IMG/VR virus record: IMGVR_UViG_3300028025_003948
Span: 1 to 33,974 of that record
DNA: 33,974 nt
Strand: one strand, 5' to 3'
Origin: a virus
Below, one piece after another: positions 6,099 to 33,974 of this stretch (positions within the stretch are counted from its first letter, which is position 1; the number at the start of each line of letters is the position of its first letter). Under the pieces are notes generated by a model. It saw only the letters and a list, made by a program, of their open reading frames with translations. It was not told the origin of the DNA and made no database searches. The position numbers and the translations under genes were made by a program.

Positions 6099-6374
6099 CT
6101 ATAGGATATCGCTGGCAATATGTGCAGGATTCACACAATCAGTATGACCGCAAATTCTTTCCCCCGGATGAACTAAAACCCCTTCATCATCCACCGGGTT
6201 TAGCTCAAGATCTAAAGCCCCTTGGAATGGAATACAGCGAAGCTTCCCATACTGAATCATTACCGCAGGTTTGACCCTACAGGAAGCACAGAGAAGGTCT
6301 TTCCTTCCCCGCTTCTCCGCATTTACAGTCCAGACAAAGCCACATCTGCGACATTCAACCTGATTATCTTGCAA
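6099..6374 (-). CDS. Zinc-finger / degenerate HNH-like protein
   Basis: 91 aa with CRRCG (near 9-13), CASC (near 29-32) and a C-terminal GERICGHTDCVNPAHI block like the end of an HNH nuclease. The catalytic His pair is incomplete, so it may bind DNA rather than cut. It has a relative at 10487-10885 with the same CxxC pairs and RICGH-DCVN-AHI. The start appears to be TTG at 6374, overlapping the end of the Mom-like gene. Confidence 0.6.
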   Translation of the reverse strand: MQDNQVECRRCGFVWTVNAEKRGRKDLLCASCRVKPAVMIQYGKLRCIPFQGALDLELNPVDDEGVLVHPGERICGHTDCVNPAHIASDIL

Positions 6375-6996
6375 CTAAATCCGCCTTCGGATAAGGTTCA
6401 AGCTTATATCTAAGTAACTTCAGCAAATACTTTTTTCTTCCCTTATTAGCATTGATAAAAATATATCTATGCTTCCTTGATCTTTCCTTCAAACTGAAGC
6501 TATCTCCAAACAGTTCCCGCATCTCAACCGCAGAATATTTATCTGCCCAAGTATGCCCATGCTTCTCAATACCTTCAACAGTCCAATCTGTTCGCTTCGC
6601 ACTCAAGCCAGTATAAAACCAGTTTGTAGCTTGATAAACAATCCCTAAATGGTTTTGTTCAGTATCAGCAAAACTAACGATAATCTCTTTATCAAGTTTT
6701 CGCAAAGTATTCCCGATCAGAAAACTTTCCCCATTCTTTGGAACTGAATCATCAACCCAAAGGCGTGTAAGTTCATAAACATTTTCTACATGATCTTCAC
6801 CGCATAAGCCTTTGCGAAGCGAACTAGAAGCGGGAGTTCCATAAACAACGACACCTAAACAGTTCAAAGGGTCTTCAACATGAAAAAGCCCGAAAGCTAT
6901 AGAACAAGGGGCTTTTCTATGAAGATAATGCTTCTCAACAACAATCTGCATTGCTTCCGCATAACTGACTTGCTCAATAAAGTATTTCTCAAGCAT
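6364..6996 (-). CDS. Mom-like DNA modification protein (copy 1)
   Basis: About 210 aa from ATG 6996, which overlaps the helicase stop; longer readings lie inside the helicase gene. Motifs shared with the copy at 32871-33557: HY near the N-terminus, GVVVYG, YELTRLWVDD, IVSFAD...HLGIVYQATNWFYTG and HRYIFI. These match the Mom family, GNAT-related enzymes; phage Mu Mom converts adenine to N6-carbamoylmethyladenine, blocking restriction. It lies between helicase and a zinc-finger gene. The family call is fairly sure; the chemistry here is inferred. Confidence 0.75.
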   Translation of the reverse strand: MLEKYFIEQVSYAEAMQIVVEKHYLHRKAPCSIAFGLFHVEDPLNCLGVVVYGTPASSSLRKGLCGEDHVENVYELTRLWVDDSVPKNGESFLIGNTLRKLDKEIIVSFADTEQNHLGIVYQATNWFYTGLSAKRTDWTVEGIEKHGHTWADKYSAVEMRELFGDSFSLKERSRKHRYIFINANKGRKKYLLKLLRYKLEPYPKADLVAR

Positions 6997-8272
6997 TAGA
7001 AACTTCTCGCACTCTAGAGAACTCTCCATCAAACTTAGCTTCAAAGAAACCTGTAGCCCCATGCCTATTCTTCACTACATCTAAAGTAATCAAAGACTTC
7101 TGCCCAAAAGCATAAAGCTTCTGACTAAGCCCCGAAGCAATATTTTTATCTTCAATAATATCCGCTTCACTCTGCTTTCTTGAAAGCATAATAATTACAT
7201 CCGCATCCTGTTCAATCTGCCCCGAATCTCTAAGATCTCCCGCAGTTGGTCTTTCATCAGGTTTCCCATCAATACGCCTATTCAACTGGGCTAAAGCGAT
7301 AACAGGAATCCCAAATTCTTTAGCAAGATTCTTTAGATCCATACTTATCTGCGATATCTGTTCATACTTAGGGCTTTTAGGGTTAGCTGCCTGAATCAGC
7401 TGAAGATAATCAACAAATACCGCCTTCACAGGTCGCTGTTGCATCACCGCATTCAAATAACTTCTAATCTGTGAAATAGTTTGCCCGCCACGATCAGAAA
7501 TAATCAGCTTATTCTCTACAGTCCTAATCAAATCCCTAATAGCCCCCTGCCACTCTGGAAGAAGTGTTCCCCTTTCAATACTTTCTAAAGGAATAGCAAG
7601 CTCACCAGAAACAACACGATTCAACAAAGAAGCCTTATCCATCTCAAGCGAAAAGAAAACCACATCTTCCGATCTTGAAAGTTCCCAAGCAAGTTGCATA
7701 CCAACCACAGTTTTACCCACGCCTGGTCTAGCACCGATAACATAAAGCCCCGATTGCTTTAGCCCAACAATCATGCGATTCAAACCAGCAAAACAAGTAG
7801 TCAAAGTTCTTCTAGGATTCAAAATATCGTTTAGCATCATCTGCAAATCCCACCGCAAATCTGGAAGCTCTAAAGATTGAACAACCTTCAACTGATCCAA
7901 CTTCAAGCGGACAGCATCAATCTTTTCCTGAACATTCCCGCCCTTCTGCATCTCCAAAGCAAGCAAACCAAGTTGGCGTTCAACACTCTTTTCTAAAACC
8001 TTAGAAGCGTAACTATGCACATTCTGCGGAGTAAAAGCAAACTGAACAGAATCATAAATCCGCTGCCTAGAAGATTCATTAGCGATTTCGGAACAAATAG
8101 TAAAAACATCAAAGAAGCGTTTCTTCTCAAACTGATCAGACATCACCGCATAAGCATCCCTGAACCAAGGAGAATCAAAATCATCTGCAACTAAAGACAT
8201 TTGCTCCATGCCCAAACCCTGATTGACTAGAAGGCAACCAATAACAAGTTCTTCAAAATCTACAACCTGCAT
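6989..8272 (-). CDS. dnaB: DnaB-type replicative helicase
   Basis: 427 aa. The N-terminal domain (about 1-100) loads primase; a linker leads to the RecA-like motor. Walker A is GARPGVGKT at 180-188, the downstream Glu sits in FFSLEM, Walker B is VFVDYLQLI at about 285-293, and ALAQLNRR follows. It unwinds DNA at the fork as a hexamer. Length is slightly under that of bacterial DnaB. It follows the initiator gene by 2 nt, typical of phage replication modules. Confidence 0.93.
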   Translation of the reverse strand: MQVVDFEELVIGCLLVNQGLGMEQMSLVADDFDSPWFRDAYAVMSDQFEKKRFFDVFTICSEIANESSRQRIYDSVQFAFTPQNVHSYASKVLEKSVERQLGLLALEMQKGGNVQEKIDAVRLKLDQLKVVQSLELPDLRWDLQMMLNDILNPRRTLTTCFAGLNRMIVGLKQSGLYVIGARPGVGKTVVGMQLAWELSRSEDVVFFSLEMDKASLLNRVVSGELAIPLESIERGTLLPEWQGAIRDLIRTVENKLIISDRGGQTISQIRSYLNAVMQQRPVKAVFVDYLQLIQAANPKSPKYEQISQISMDLKNLAKEFGIPVIALAQLNRRIDGKPDERPTAGDLRDSGQIEQDADVIIMLSRKQSEADIIEDKNIASGLSQKLYAFGQKSLITLDVVKNRHGATGFFEAKFDGEFSRVREVSNA

Positions 8273-8926: not shown

Positions 8927-9370
8927 TTATTGTTTTCTAAAAATAACTATTGCCGAAGGAAAAGGGGCGGCATCCCCATTAGAACCAGGTTTCACAAACT
9001 TCAACCTTCCCCGAATAAATCGGATCTCCGAAGCCTTAGCAGCGTAATCATGCCACCAAGCTGTATCTGTTCTTGCAGGAACTAGACAAACCACAGTAGC
9101 CCCCCCCCCGCCAGACCATGCTTCTAGAGCTTTAGCCATCCAAAGTTTGATATCTCTACCATAAGGGGGATTACACCAAACAACACCATCCCAAACTTGA
9201 GTTAAACCATTCTTTTCTTTATCAAAATAGTTTTCAACCTTAAAATTATGTTCATTTGCACAAACATCAACAGTAAAACCAAATTCTTCATTCAGTTCAT
9301 CAAATAGCTTCTGCGGAGTTCCCCAATCATCAGCGGTGCTTGTATACCAAGAATCATTTATCTTAGTCAT
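8927..9370 (-). CDS. Phage Dam-type adenine-N6 methyltransferase
   Basis: 147 aa of the phage N6-adenine methyltransferase family. An N-terminal DDWGTPQKLFDELNEEFGF block is followed by DVCAN, the catalytic NPPYGR at 67-72, then VVCLVPARTDTAWWHDY and EIRFIRGRLKF. It transfers methyl from SAM to adenine. The gene contains a run of ten G (plus-strand C run 9100-9109) encoding GGGG at 87-90, in a loop between conserved segments; loss or gain of one base would truncate the enzyme. It starts directly after the stop of the C5 methyltransferase gene. Confidence 0.88.
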   Translation of the reverse strand: MTKINDSWYTSTADDWGTPQKLFDELNEEFGFTVDVCANEHNFKVENYFDKEKNGLTQVWDGVVWCNPPYGRDIKLWMAKALEAWSGGGGATVVCLVPARTDTAWWHDYAAKASEIRFIRGRLKFVKPGSNGDAAPFPSAIVIFRKQ

Positions 9371-9935
9371 TTATTTTTTTCCTAGTCTTTCTAGAACTTC
9401 ATCATCAATCAGCAACTCTAATGCTAATTTTGCTTGTTGCGGAACAACTCCATTACCTAAAGCCTTGAGTTGATCGTTACGCTTCAAACCAAGTTCTGGA
9501 TCAGTAACCCAACCTTCAGGCAATCCCATCATCCATTCAACAAATTCAGCGGCTAATCTGTGAGTTCCTTCTTTTCCATCTGGTTTTGTAGGTTCAGGGG
9601 CTTTTCTACCTAAGATTTCTTCCCATCTTCTAATTGCGGGTTCAAACTTACCCCAAGACATCCTTACAGCAACGCCCAAACTTACACCGGGCATTCCCCG
9701 ATATTCTCCAGAATCAGCTTTAGATCTTCTATCTAAATAATCTTCGATAGGTTCATCATGATTACGAATGTGAGCAACTGAAGGAGTAGGAAGAAGATTT
9801 CTTTCTTGCCTAGTAACAGGGAAACCTTGACTTGCAACAAGATCCATTACTTGATCTCTAACTGCGACAGTATTGCCACGCTTCAACGCTTCCGCTTCAC
9901 CTAAAGCCCCGCCAGAACCTTCACTAGCCTTTGGG
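9371..9935 (-). CDS. dcm: C5 cytosine methyltransferase, C-terminal part (other frame)
   Basis: The second half of a DNA cytosine-C5 methyltransferase, continuing in the +1 frame from the gene at 9924-10490. It carries the target-recognition region and the motif IX/X end (KRNDQLKALGNGVVPQQA). This frame is open up to 10147, but the segment before about 9935 is only the shadow of the N-terminal half. If one base of the CCCC run (9933-9936) is skipped, the reading becomes IIAFPKASEGSGG and a 372-aa enzyme of normal length results. Without frameshifting it has no obvious start of its own. Confidence 0.7.
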
Positions 9936-10490
9936 GAACGCAATAATAAACATTCTGAATCTGTTGTGAGCTGCTCCTGTATCGGAAGCCCGAATACCTG
10001 TCCATTTCGCATCATACCCGAGATCATCCAGCGATCCAAGAACGGCCTGGATTGCTGTAAAAACAGGTCTTGCTCCAAGTTCATCCAATATTTCAGTTGA
10101 GTATTCCATTCCGTTATCGGCTTTTGCTGTAAGTAATCCACGCACATTTTCTATAACTACCAATCTTGGTCTAATAATTTCTATAGCTTTAGCAAACTCT
10201 AGCCAAAGCCCTGATCTTGTTCCTTCTTGAAGTCCAGCCCTTTTCCCCGCTAAAGATAAATCTTGGCAAGGGAAGCCGCCAGTTAGAACATCTACTTGCT
10301 CAATACTTGAAAAATCAACTTTAGTTACATCTCGATAATTAGGAACACCTGGAAAGTGTTTTTCAAGAATTTTAGATGGAGCATCTTCCCATTCACAATG
10401 CCATGCCATTTCAGCATCAAGAAATTCCAAAACCGCTAAATCTAAGCCGCCATAACCAGAGAAAAGACTTCCAACTCTTAGCTTACTCAT
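9924..10490 (-). CDS. dcm: C5 cytosine methyltransferase, N-terminal part
   Basis: 188 aa with motif I FSGYGGLDLA (10-19), motif IV with catalytic PCQ (74-76), motif VI ENV (114-116) and motif VIII NRFRMF (176-181). It stops at TAG 9924 right after AFPKG, before the recognition domain and motif X, so alone it should be inactive. The missing part follows in the +1 frame. Explanations: a real single-base insertion, a sequencing error in CCCC, or programmed +1 slippage at TTC-CCC-AAA. The ATG at 10490 overlaps the upstream zinc-finger gene. Confidence 0.8.
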   Translation of the reverse strand: MSKLRVGSLFSGYGGLDLAVLEFLDAEMAWHCEWEDAPSKILEKHFPGVPNYRDVTKVDFSSIEQVDVLTGGFPCQDLSLAGKRAGLQEGTRSGLWLEFAKAIEIIRPRLVVIENVRGLLTAKADNGMEYSTEILDELGARPVFTAIQAVLGSLDDLGYDAKWTGIRASDTGAAHNRFRMFIIAFPKG

Positions 10491-11318: not shown

Positions 11319-11596
11319 GCACCTACTTTTTCTTCTACTTGATCGCACCATTCGCAAAGCTCATAATCAAACTTTTTCTGGCAAATCGGGAAGTTACCCA
11401 TTTTATCCATGTATCGTAAATCAAGAAGCATATCTTTCCATGCCCCCGCCTTATCGCCTTCAGAATAGTAATAGATCTGTTCATGAACTTCACCATCAAA
11501 GGTTTTACCTAATGGGGCTTCTAGTCTTAGAAAATCTGGTTCAGTAATAACTGCACCTAGTTTTTTCGCTAAAGCTTCGCATCTTTGCTTAGACAT
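11315..11596 (-). CDS. Hypothetical protein
   Basis: 93 aa from ATG 11596, which overlaps the stop of the preceding gene (TAATG); readings from 11677 lie inside that gene. Mixed alpha/beta, acidic, with CEWC near the end (LCEWCDQVEEKVGA). No family recognised. Confidence 0.5.
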   Translation of the reverse strand: MSKQRCEALAKKLGAVITEPDFLRLEAPLGKTFDGEVHEQIYYYSEGDKAGAWKDMLLDLRYMDKMGNFPICQKKFDYELCEWCDQVEEKVGA

Positions 11597-30899: not shown

Positions 30900-32423
30900 T
30901 TAGAATACGAAAAATTCTGGAATTGGATCCGATTCTAGTTTAGTGCTTGCTCTATCATATGCGATAACAAAAGCGACAGCCGCATCTATCTTTCTCGCAC
31001 TATTACGAGATTCCTTCACAATCCTTGCACCCATAGCATCAATCTTCAACATGCAGTTATCTAAATGTCTTGCAAGAAGCGGGTTTCCGTCATGGGTCAA
31101 AGTTGATTCAGTAACAGCATCAAAGACTTTTTGGCACGCTGGAATCATTCTGCGGGGGCTAGTAGAAGGGAACTCCACGATTGGCAACCCTAAATCTTGA
31201 AGCACCGCCATAGATCTTTGCCATCTAAAAGGGTCAAAAGCTATTTCTTTTACATACCTATATTTTTGGCAAAACATTTTTATTGTTTCTTCAACTTCTA
31301 AAGTATCTACACGCCATTCAGCATTATCTGTTGGCTGCTTCTCCCATGCCTTGACTAGAAAAACAAAAGGCTTTTCTTCTTTAGTTTTAGGAATAGTAAC
31401 CCCAACTATTGCGGTTGTATCTCCAGAGAAAGATCCATCAACACCTAAAATTATTTCATCATCAAGGGAGATTTCTTTTTCTATTCTTAGGGTCTGCCAA
31501 CTACCAGCTGGAAGCCAAGCATTTTGTGAGCTTACCCATTGATTACAACGCTTTGTTCTGAACTCTGCTTCCGGGGTTCTCTTTACCATTGAAGCAAAAT
31601 CATCCCTAGAATTTAGATCTCCATAACCTGGATTAGCGGCAATCCAAGTTGATTCTTGCCTATGGTCTGCATCAAGCGGGGCTTCCCACCAGGCCATGTA
31701 GAAACTTGGATCGGAAATTTCCCCGGAAGCGACTTTTTGCCCATATTGATAAAGCTGGTATGCGGTTGAATCTTGCCCTGTTGAATCTGACTTCACTCCG
31801 CAAGTAGTGGTTGCAAGCATCATGGGCTGTCTTCTTGAAGCCATAGAAAGTTGCATAACATCCCACATTTTGCGATCTTGGAGAGCATGAACTTCGTCAA
31901 AGATAACTGCCGAAGCATTCAATCCTTCTTTGGAATAACTCTCGGAAGATAGAACACGCCAAACAGATCCAGTTGCTGGAACTTCAATAACATCCCGATA
32001 GATATTACACATTGAAGCTAGTTCAGGTTCTCTATCAATAATTTTTCGGGCATCTCCAAAAGTAATTCGGGCTTGTTCTTTTTCAGCTGCACAAGAATAA
32101 ACTTCACCGCCTTCATCACCATTGAAAAGAAACCACAAACCCAACCCGGTCATTAGGGCAGACTTTCCATTCTTCCTGGCTTTGCCCCAAAGTGCTGTCC
32201 TTTTAGCAAACAAACCATTTTCGTCTAAAGCTAAAGTTTCAGTTAGTAGCTGTTCTTGCCAAGGTCTAAGCCTGATAGATTCACCCGCATTACCTGCAAT
32301 AGAATCCTTAGTCAAAGTTACGAAAGTGTTTATAAAATCAATCGCATCCGCACCTTTAGAACCATGCTGAAGGTCTGTCGGAGTTAGCCAAGCTGGTGGC
32401 CATGAACTATTTGTTTTCTCCAT
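30900..32423 (-). CDS. terL: Terminase large subunit
   Basis: 507 aa. The ATPase domain has Walker A KARKNGKS (81-88) and Walker B VIFDE (173-177) with a following His; the nuclease domain has LGVDGSFSGDTTAIVG near 327-342 and a late acidic KIDAAVAFVIAYDRA. It cuts concatemers and drives DNA into the prohead through the portal. The start ATG 32423 overlaps the small subunit gene. Length is normal for phage terminases of this type. Confidence 0.93.
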   Translation of the reverse strand: MEKTNSSWPPAWLTPTDLQHGSKGADAIDFINTFVTLTKDSIAGNAGESIRLRPWQEQLLTETLALDENGLFAKRTALWGKARKNGKSALMTGLGLWFLFNGDEGGEVYSCAAEKEQARITFGDARKIIDREPELASMCNIYRDVIEVPATGSVWRVLSSESYSKEGLNASAVIFDEVHALQDRKMWDVMQLSMASRRQPMMLATTTCGVKSDSTGQDSTAYQLYQYGQKVASGEISDPSFYMAWWEAPLDADHRQESTWIAANPGYGDLNSRDDFASMVKRTPEAEFRTKRCNQWVSSQNAWLPAGSWQTLRIEKEISLDDEIILGVDGSFSGDTTAIVGVTIPKTKEEKPFVFLVKAWEKQPTDNAEWRVDTLEVEETIKMFCQKYRYVKEIAFDPFRWQRSMAVLQDLGLPIVEFPSTSPRRMIPACQKVFDAVTESTLTHDGNPLLARHLDNCMLKIDAMGARIVKESRNSARKIDAAVAFVIAYDRASTKLESDPIPEFFVF

Positions 32424-32871
32424 TAGCCCTTGCTTCTTGTCTTCGCTTCAACGCTTCCATTTTAGAAATTGCTTTTACTTCAGCAACGCCAAGTCTAGAT
32501 CTATCTGCGGGGGTGAAACCTAGAAGGCTTAGATTGCTGATAATTCTTGAATCAAGTTCCCGCAACGCCCTTCTTTCCCGCCAATCGTTATCTTGCATAA
32601 CCTTGATTCTAAGATTCCAGCGTTCATCAATAAGTTCGCAGGTCATAAGTAAAAGCTCTGAATCAGTATTTGGGCTAATCCAAGTTAGACCAGAGATCCA
32701 AACCTTATCCCAAAACTCCCGCCCATATCTTAGAAGCGGTCTAGCAGGTTCTGGAACTTTAGAAATAGGTTCTAAAAGTTGAATAGTTGAAGTATCAGGC
32801 AAAGCCCTTCTACCCGGATTACCTAATTTCCGTTTTACTTCAACAGGTTTAGTTGGTCTTCCCGCTGGCAT
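32407..32871 (-). CDS. terS: Terminase small subunit (P27-like)
   Basis: 154 aa. The basic opening MPAGRPTKPVEVKRKLGNPG, the central helices REFWDKVWISGLTW, and the end FTPADRSRLGVAEVK match the P27-type small terminase family. It recognises phage DNA and activates the large subunit. The start codon overlaps the stop of the Mom-like gene (TAATG). Confidence 0.87.
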   Translation of the reverse strand: MPAGRPTKPVEVKRKLGNPGRRALPDTSTIQLLEPISKVPEPARPLLRYGREFWDKVWISGLTWISPNTDSELLLMTCELIDERWNLRIKVMQDNDWRERRALRELDSRIISNLSLLGFTPADRSRLGVAEVKAISKMEALKRRQEARANGENK

Positions 32872-33557
32872 TAGTTATCTTCTAGAGCAGTTGGCAGGGG
32901 TCGAACCTGCACTTCAGCAACGGAATTGCTGTGGCTTACCTTCAAGCCTTCAACTGCATTTGGGTATTGCAAAGACAGTTTAGCAAGTTTTCTTCGCAAA
33001 TTCTTATCTAACGGATAAAGATATCTAAACTTTCCTGGCATTGTTCGCTTCGGGGCAAAAGGTCTTTGCGGATGGTGATAAGCGTTTCTAGTGTGCATCC
33101 ATCTTCCATCTATATAGTATTCAACGACAGGATTGCTCTTACCTGTATAAACCCAGTTACCCGCCTGATAGATTCCGCCCTTATGCCCTTCTTTTGGATC
33201 AGCGAAAGAAACAATACATCTAAGACCTGGACTATTCTGCTTCAGCATCTTCAGGCAAGCCGCCACTAATTGAGAAACTGGGGTGATGTGTTTGTCTAAA
33301 GCAATTCGAGTTAGCTCACAAATTTCAGTTTGATCCAAATTCAAGAAACTTCCAAGATGTGGAGAAGCACCCCTAGAAAAAATTATTACCCCAATAAAGT
33401 TACCTGATTCAAATACGCCATATCTAATCAGCTTGCTTGCAGGTAAAGACTTAGAGTAATGCCAATTCTTCACAGCGTAAAGTGCCGCCTGTTGATTGAC
33501 TAACTTTATTTCAAACAATTTCAAAACCTGAAGCGGTCTTCCTAAACTCACAGGCAC
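32871..33557 (-). CDS. Mom-like DNA modification protein (copy 2)
   Basis: Up to 228 aa. Shared with copy 1: HY in NWHYSKSLPASKLIRYG, GVIIFSRG, ICELTRIALD, IVSFADP..HKGGIYQAGNWVYTG and KFRYLYPL. The family (Mu Mom) modifies adenines to evade restriction; next to ParB and terminase it may act before packaging. The start is unsure: GTG 33557 overlaps ParB, while TTG 33524 or 33518 would fit the mature N-terminus. The family part ends near QYPN; the last 28 residues coincide with a predicted tRNA, so they are probably an appended tail. Confidence 0.75.
   Translation of the reverse strand: MPVSLGRPLQVLKLFEIKLVNQQAALYAVKNWHYSKSLPASKLIRYGVFESGNFIGVIIFSRGASPHLGSFLNLDQTEICELTRIALDKHITPVSQLVAACLKMLKQNSPGLRCIVSFADPKEGHKGGIYQAGNWVYTGKSNPVVEYYIDGRWMHTRNAYHHPQRPFAPKRTMPGKFRYLYPLDKNLRRKLAKLSLQYPNAVEGLKVSHSNSVAEVQVRPLPTALEDN
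32886..32957 (-). tRNA. tRNA-Gly(UCC), overlapping the Mom-like gene
   Basis: A 72-nt cloverleaf on the minus strand. Acceptor stem GCAGTTG/CAACTGC pairs fully; D stem GGCT/AGCC with loop TGAAGGTA; anticodon stem CAGCA/TGCTG with loop ATTCCGT (anticodon TCC); T stem GCAGG/CCTGC with canonical loop TTCGACC; discriminator T, as for bacterial tRNA-Gly. CCA is not encoded. Odd points: position 8 is A and 14 is T instead of T and A. It lies wholly inside the Mom-like reading frame. It could be a working gene, a remnant, or an attachment-type sequence copied from the host. Confidence 0.72.
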
Positions 33558-33974
33558 AAGAAGGGCAAGTTATAGAAGCTCTCTGATCTAGCCTTGCTTC
33601 ATCCGAATCATCTAAAAGATTATCTGGCAGAGAAACAGATTCAACTTCAAATGCTAGAAGCTCAATATCAAAACCCGCTTCTTCAAGTTCTGCCAACTGA
33701 CTTGATAGAACTTCTTGATTCCAAGTTGCAAGTTCAGCGGTTCTATTATCGGCAAGTGCATAAGCCTTTACCTTTTCGGCATCCCAATCTTCAGGAATAA
33801 CCGCCACTAAGATTTCTTTCCATCCGATAGATCTAGCAGCCACTAAAGTTCCATTTCCAGCGATAACAGTTTTACGCCAAACGGAGATCGGCTTCCTTTG
33901 CCCGAACTGTTTCAAGCTTTCAGCGATTGCCTTGATGTTTTTATCATCATGCTTTCTAGCATTATTCGGGTCAA
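33511..33974 (-). CDS. ParB/Srx-like nuclease domain protein, 5' end cut by window
   Basis: The frame is open to the right edge. Visible: DPNNARKHDDKNIKAIAESL, then FGQRKPISVWRKTVIAGNGT and ALADNRTAELATW, the ParB N-terminal fold of phage modification and packaging regions; the C-terminus has CPSCACEF, a possible zinc pair. An apparent TTG start at 33915 lies inside the domain, so the true start is beyond 33974 and only a few residues should be missing. In phages this fold is more often a CTP-binding or nuclease accessory than a partition protein. Confidence 0.82.
   Translation of the reverse strand, partial: DPNNARKHDDKNIKAIAESLKQFGQRKPISVWRKTVIAGNGTLVAARSIGWKEILVAVIPEDWDAEKVKAYALADNRTAELATWNQEVLSSQLAELEEAGFDIELLAFEVESVSLPDNLLDDSDEARLDQRASITCPSCACEFRKTASGFEIV

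Follow-up and report, generated by a model that had tools for sequence, protein, structure and literature searches.

The window, i.e., the whole stretch of 33,974 nucleotides analysed here (IMG/VR virus record IMGVR_UViG_3300028025_003948), carries on its minus strand a ParB-like gene (33511..33972 (-), cut by the window edge), a Mom-family open reading frame (ORF; 32871..33557 (-), 228 aa with the GTG start as listed) and a terminase small-subunit gene (32407..32871 (-); PF25673). The Mom ORF matched phrog_1384 and the Pfam Mom domain PF25680 with an E value of 9e-47 and 159.8 bits against a curated cut-off of 27.1. The domain proper, delimited by PF25680 and by AlphaFold (AF2) confidence, covers residues 15-199 (32961..33515 (-)). 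An AF2 model of the window Mom was built on 49 relatives and reached an overall pLDDT of 83.9; the values were mostly above 90 to about residue 200 and 30-37 from residue 201, and the fold is predicted to end near residue 201, with a disordered tail beyond. Foldseek returned Mu Mom (8bv8; E 6.8e-13) as the best match to this model, followed by GNAT acetyltransferases, indicating that the predicted fold is GNAT-like, as in Mu Mom. From its family, the window Mom would be expected to make N6-carbamoylmethyl-adenine. A ParB-like gene also lies directly 5' of mom in phiEf11, Appa and an L. amylovorus plasmid (L453 690-1211; L455 639-1172; L457 720-1226).

A sequence-only reading of the window had proposed a tRNA-Gly(UCC) gene at 32886-32957 inside the Mom-like frame, without stating its strand. 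ARAGORN and Rfam agreed with this proposal. The single tRNA that ARAGORN found in the window was tRNA-Gly(tcc) at 32885-32957 on the minus strand, and Rfam RF00005 matched 32886-32957 with 51.8 bits (gathering threshold 29) and an E value of 1.7e-8. The gene (32886..32957 (-); 71 nt plus the discriminator U73), which is also supported by covariation in 26 relatives, folded into a full cloverleaf at -30.6 kcal/mol, with a z score of -3.6 against dinucleotide shuffles. As the reading had described, all four stems are fully paired (21/21 pairs Watson-Crick, zero G-U) and the T loop, TTCGACC, is canonical. The acceptor stem is formed by the 5' strand GCAGTTG (32951..32957 (-)), whose G1 and C2 belong to glycine identity, and the 3' strand at 32887..32893 (-). 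The D arm (32933..32948 (-)) consists of GGCU/AGCC with an extra U14-A21 pair and has A, not U, at position 8; its columns 10-14 covary with 21-25. The anticodon arm CAGCA-AUUCCGU-UGCUG (32915..32931 (-)) was delimited by ARAGORN and supported by covariation and by double compensatory changes in the nearest relatives; it holds the anticodon UCC (32922..32924 (-)), whose C35 and C36 are conserved family-wide. The T arm GCAGG-UUCGACC-CCUGC (32894..32910 (-)) was identified from the cloverleaf fold and covariation. CCA is absent from the gene, and the bases after U73 are CTA. The covariance model R2, of which the window sequence is a part, scored the tRNA at 86.8 bits.

The tRNA enters the Mom frame in frame at codon 201, two residues beyond the domain end, and spans residues 201-224. 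Four residues (LEDN) follow before the TAA, which overlaps the terminase ATG at 32871; i.e., the Mom-like frame runs to the terminase start, as had been proposed. The window encodes a second, distant Mom paralogue (6364-7062 (-)) with 32% identity over 149 residues to the tRNA-bearing Mom and no tRNA. The reading had placed this protein at 6364-6996, ending just where the tRNA begins; it does stop a few residues past the PYPK motif common to both proteins, but its true span is 6364-7062. It is closest to the Mom of Microbacterium phage Lupine, with which it groups in a part of the tree that lacks the element. One phage thus carries two Moms from different clades. In addition, the adjacent genes at 8927-9370 and 9371-10147 (-) each match DNA methyltransferase families. 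With two methyltransferase-like genes and two mom genes, the window phage appears to be heavily DNA-modifying.

We compared the 3' ends of mom in IMG/VR relatives of the Mom protein, genome prophages and phage isolates. The ten nearest relatives differed from the window at 2-20 of the 72 bases and in 1-8 of the 24 tail residues, with none of the 21 pairs broken. Up to 8 double compensatory changes were found in these relatives, several of which had both sides of a pair replaced; in L002, for example, pair 27-43 changed from C-G to G-C and pair 30-40 from C-G to U-A. Across 26 diverse type I elements, 98.7% of cells were paired, and the covariation score was 0.732 (n=26) compared with 0.174 for shuffled alignments and at most 0.162 for slid structures. 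RNAalifold recovered the cloverleaf unaided from these 26 elements, and the D arm had not been used in choosing them. Positions 14 and 21 covaried as C-G/U-A, lengthening the D stem.

The family includes two further types. Type II elements measure about 72 nt, with a D arm that lacks GG and a T stem interrupted by a bulged A (20/20); 97.4% of their cells were paired. Type III elements measure 64-66 nt and have no D arm; the bulged A is kept (27/27), and the acceptor and T arms are 100% paired. The types were aligned separately (A2, A4 and A5) because MAFFT alignment of mixed types misplaced the acceptor strand of the short forms. In the type III alignment A5, columns 15-16 covaried with 41-42 (GC with GC, CA with UG), joining the former D region to the base of the T arm; these extra pairs may stand in for the D arm. 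ARAGORN detected type I copies and only a few others. Rfam, run on twelve loci, missed types II and III except for L215, which was above threshold, with L049 just below. By eye and then with covariance models, we found the element in nearly all relatives in the Mom clade of the window; those in L018, L019, L032 and L036 were identified by one or the other of these means. Each of the 61 cluster representatives scanned carried the element beside mom, a count that is partly circular because many of them were used to build the models. Covariance-model matches outside model building include L098, L107 and, with strong scores, L100, L106, L111, L114, L119, L133, L137, L437-L440 and L454. Other mom loci spanning 259 kb yielded a single match with E <0.01 outside the vicinity of mom, a tRNA-Leu. 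As a chance control, a structural parser passed 154/177 mom loci, 0/180 shuffles and none of the loci without an element.

Bacterial glycyl-tRNA synthetase recognizes G1-C72, C2-G71, U73, C35 and C36, and the window tRNA has this entire set. U73 and the initial GC were present in 104/104 distinct elements chosen on pairing alone, and C35 and C36 in 46/46 type I and II elements, in which position 34 is U, A or C (one G). CCA was encoded after U73 in 43/75 non-redundant elements; a strict link between encoded CCA and host phylum was considered, but it appeared to hold only roughly (L119, from a gammaproteobacterial bin, has no CCA). The window tRNA and nearly all of the family depart from the decoding-tRNA consensus of U8-A14 and A21, positions 14 and 21 instead forming the covarying pair in type I. 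The reading had regarded A8-T14 as an odd reversal. Both bases are indeed present; however, A8 is a signature of the family (25/26 type I, 20/20 type II and 26/27 type III). G18G19 is lost in types II and III, T55 is replaced, mostly by G, and the D arm is lost in type III. This pattern of kept and lost features fits a tRNA that would need to be charged with glycine but not to decode. Features likely to weaken use by EF-Tu and the ribosome are strong in types II and III, whereas the window copy is near-canonical (U33, GG and TTCGA) and therefore may decode to some extent.

Accordingly, the window copy alone might be taken for an ordinary phage tRNA reading GGA/GGG codons that overlaps mom through chance compaction. 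Phage tRNAs are common, this copy is seen by both ARAGORN and Rfam, and GGA and GGG make up 185/473 Gly codons in 13 window ORFs. For the family, such an explanation is hard to hold: decoding features decay (Rfam misses, U33 kept in only 8/20 type II elements, A8, and the T-stem bulge in 47/47 type II and III elements), the anticodons ACC, CCC and UCC interchange, and an ordinary tRNA would not track mom through clades and positions as described below. We consider it improbable.

Linkage to mom was assessed with two DNA patterns (T arm plus acceptor) that are blind to the Mom protein and were run over viral contigs. The scans returned 170 distinct elements, 158 of which lay wholly within a mom ORF and 5 of which contained the mom stop codon. 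The rest comprised 5 elements at most 400 nt from a contig edge, one at the 5' end of a distant Mom (L413) and one beside another GNAT (L353). Other layouts were also observed. The element lies just downstream of mom in L012, L017 and Salinibacter phage B2_17 (L454); in B2_17, its depositors had labelled it tRNA-Gly. In Microbacterium phages Appa and Pickles13, a tRNA-Gly(ccc) sharing the A8 of the family lies 33 bp past mom on the opposite strand, in convergent orientation (L455 1824-1898 (-) and L456 1824-1898 (-)). In the distant mom genes L133 (1944-2020), L137 (1909-1984) and L413 (reverse complement, about 11340-11430), the element occupies the 5' end of mom and is read as the Mom N-terminus.

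A quick tree of 112 Mom rows, with many weak branches, accounted for presence of the element with 6 changes compared with 25 for shuffled labels. The element occurs widely in one large Mom clade; among its named carriers there are Actinomycetota, Pseudomonadota, Bacillota, Planctomycetota, Thermodesulfobacteriota and Calditrichota. The Mu, Listeria and jumbo-phage groups generally lack it, as do a few nested lineages. With the three covariance models and ARAGORN, no element was detected at mom in Mu, A511, ICP1, Salmonella SP-031 or phiEf11, at the Yersinia, Paenibacillus and Pseudonocardiaceae mom loci, or at the second Mom of the window. Since Moms without an adjoining element exist, the element is not essential to every Mom.

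These layouts bear on the suggestion, made in the sequence-only reading, that processing of the tRNA cuts the messenger and thereby limits Mom or releases terminase mRNA. On that account the element would be a tRNA-like RNase P/RNase Z cut site acting in cis, for which charging is irrelevant. Most elements are nested in the sense orientation at the 3' end, where a cut would take off the mom stop codon, and Mu Mom is toxic under artificial expression (PMC12707154). A cut site does not, however, predict glycine identity (U73, C35 and C36) or an encoded CCA, nor does it account for placement on the opposite strand (Appa) or beyond the ORF (L012, L017 and L454). Where the element is at the 5' end of mom, downstream of mom or on the other strand, a cut before terminase is irrelevant. 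As the main role, this suggestion therefore lacks support, and we regard it as about as improbable as an ordinary decoding tRNA; mRNA cleavage may nevertheless occur as a side effect or by-product. Slightly less probable still is autoregulation, in which Mom would bind a tRNA mimic within its own mRNA. An enzyme with affinity for Gly-tRNA might recognize such a mimic; however, a mimic has no need of synthetase identity in the anticodon and would be unable to act when encoded on the opposite strand, as in Appa.

The last alternative concerns the protein tail. In type II elements, the T-arm motif was read in frame 2 in 77 cases and in frame 0 in 5; in type III, it was read in frame 1 in 64 cases, in frame 0 in 11 and in frame 2 in one. 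The Mom stop codon falls inside the D arm in Arthrobacter phages TaeYoung and Wyborn. The reading had proposed that the tail is translated tRNA, to be doubted if related phages kept the tail while losing the stems; we observed the reverse, with stems kept in relatives whose tails change, shift frame or vanish. Although most relatives have a frame that stays open as far as the terminase start, a functional tail resembling a tRNA by chance, or an attachment-site remnant of integration, is refuted for the family by the three frames, internal stops, predicted disorder, compensatory base changes and 5' placements, and we give it almost no credence. As judged from these alignments, the conserved entity is the RNA, and the overlap yields the protein tail as a by-product.

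The tRNA, its nesting in mom, selection at the RNA level, linkage to mom and the retained glycine determinants are the observations from which our interpretation starts. We consider it very likely that the element is a tRNA dedicated to the Mom that contains it, one that mostly does not decode and that, as glycyl-tRNA, is the donor substrate of this enzyme. The tRNA would be co-transcribed with mom and then trimmed from the transcript. Because excision would remove the mom stop codon, each transcript may be either message or tRNA precursor. Host glycyl-tRNA synthetase would charge the tRNA through the retained glycine determinants, and Mom, with its GNAT fold, would move the glycyl group from Gly-tRNA to the adenine N6 of phage DNA. 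A chemically reasonable route would be acyl transfer to N6 followed by rearrangement through a five-membered ring, converting N6-glycyl to N6-CH2-CONH2. The product, N6-carbamoylmethyl-adenine (the Mu mark), would block host restriction. Much of the family lacks U8, U33, GG in the D loop, a continuous T stem or the entire D arm, which should also keep EF-Tu and the ribosome from using the tRNA. Moms without the element would draw on the Gly-tRNA of the host, which for Mu would be that of E. coli. For the window Mom, we infer expression, charging, processing and use of the tRNA from these sequence features.

The Mom mark is N6-carbamoylmethyl (methylcarbamoyl) adenine, N6-CH2-CONH2 (PMC8281217), a glycine-derived skeleton, and a comparative paper from 2021 assumed a glycyl-CoA-type donor (PMC7824862). 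According to one sentence in a 2025 meeting report, hypermodification in Mu depends on tRNA-Gly for glycyl transfer (PMC12908700). The Gly-tRNA idea had been formed from the mom linkage before we found this report, which, as far as that sentence goes, provides independent support. Mu Mom (PF25680; PDB 8bv8) is of the same family and fold as the window Mom; however, the Mu mom gene lacks the element, whereas the window phage supplies its own tRNA-Gly inside mom. The open-access literature searched for Mom with glycyl-tRNA, tRNA-like or tRNA-Gly did not describe a mom-embedded tRNA; preprints and subscription papers were outside the scope of this search. Within these limits, what is known is the tRNA-Gly dependence reported for Mom, and what is new is that the phage itself encodes the tRNA, throughout a family and in a structurally reduced form, inside the gene of the enzyme that it would serve.

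The nearest precedent, by analogy, is the tRNA-Gly that serves Fem transferases in Staphylococcus, where an isoacceptor likewise feeds a non-ribosomal aminoacyl transferase. The staphylococcal isoacceptors used in building the cell wall bind EF-Tu poorly (PMC4880308), and the chemistry of Fem transferases has been described (PMC10552525). In contrast to the mom element, these are host genes apart from fem and are not nested in the enzyme ORF, and the acceptor is a cell-wall precursor, not DNA. The window tRNA resembles ordinary tRNA genes of tailed phages in that ARAGORN and Rfam can detect it; it differs in being tied to and overlapping one gene, in being specific for glycine only and in belonging to a family most of which has lost decoding features. 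Reduced, D-armless tRNAs are found in mitochondria. Type III elements are similar to these in keeping the acceptor, anticodon and T arms without a D arm, but they occur in phages, are linked to mom and have a conserved T-stem bulge.

What donates the group that Mom adds is a long-standing question, and genomic linkage now points to Gly-tRNA, a proposal that is testable in many phages. Here, the RNA of a tRNA gene is held by selection while the overlapping protein end drifts, shifts frame or moves, and this degenerate tRNA family has been overlooked by standard tools and annotations. If the proposal is confirmed, phage tRNA genes could not safely be assumed to be translational, and mom tails in databases would be translated tRNA.

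The same tRNA-Gly element was observed 3' of a ParB-like gene, beside a PF22559 (GNAT-phage-like) gene, in L353 (reverse complement 1-1310 = L437) and L438-L440; in L353 the GNAT gene lies upstream. All four close relatives of the L353 GNAT (4/4) carried the element; a wider link to PF22559 was rejected, as distant members are without it. The L353-type GNAT is possibly a second Gly-tRNA-dependent DNA modifier. More broadly, and with less confidence than for the donor role in Mom, we think that there is probably a class of DNA-modification tRNAs: phage-encoded, glycine-charged, largely non-decoding and in some cases D-armless, each inside the frame of the GNAT that would consume it (Mom, perhaps also the PF22559 GNAT with ParB), with one transcript giving either the enzyme message or the co-substrate RNA. 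Finally, the element-free mom of Microbacterium phage Lupine is followed by genes for a polynucleotide kinase and an RNA ligase (L085 2167-3609), and that of halovirus HGTV-1 by an RNA ligase gene (L434 2357-3319); such enzymes are able to repair tRNA.
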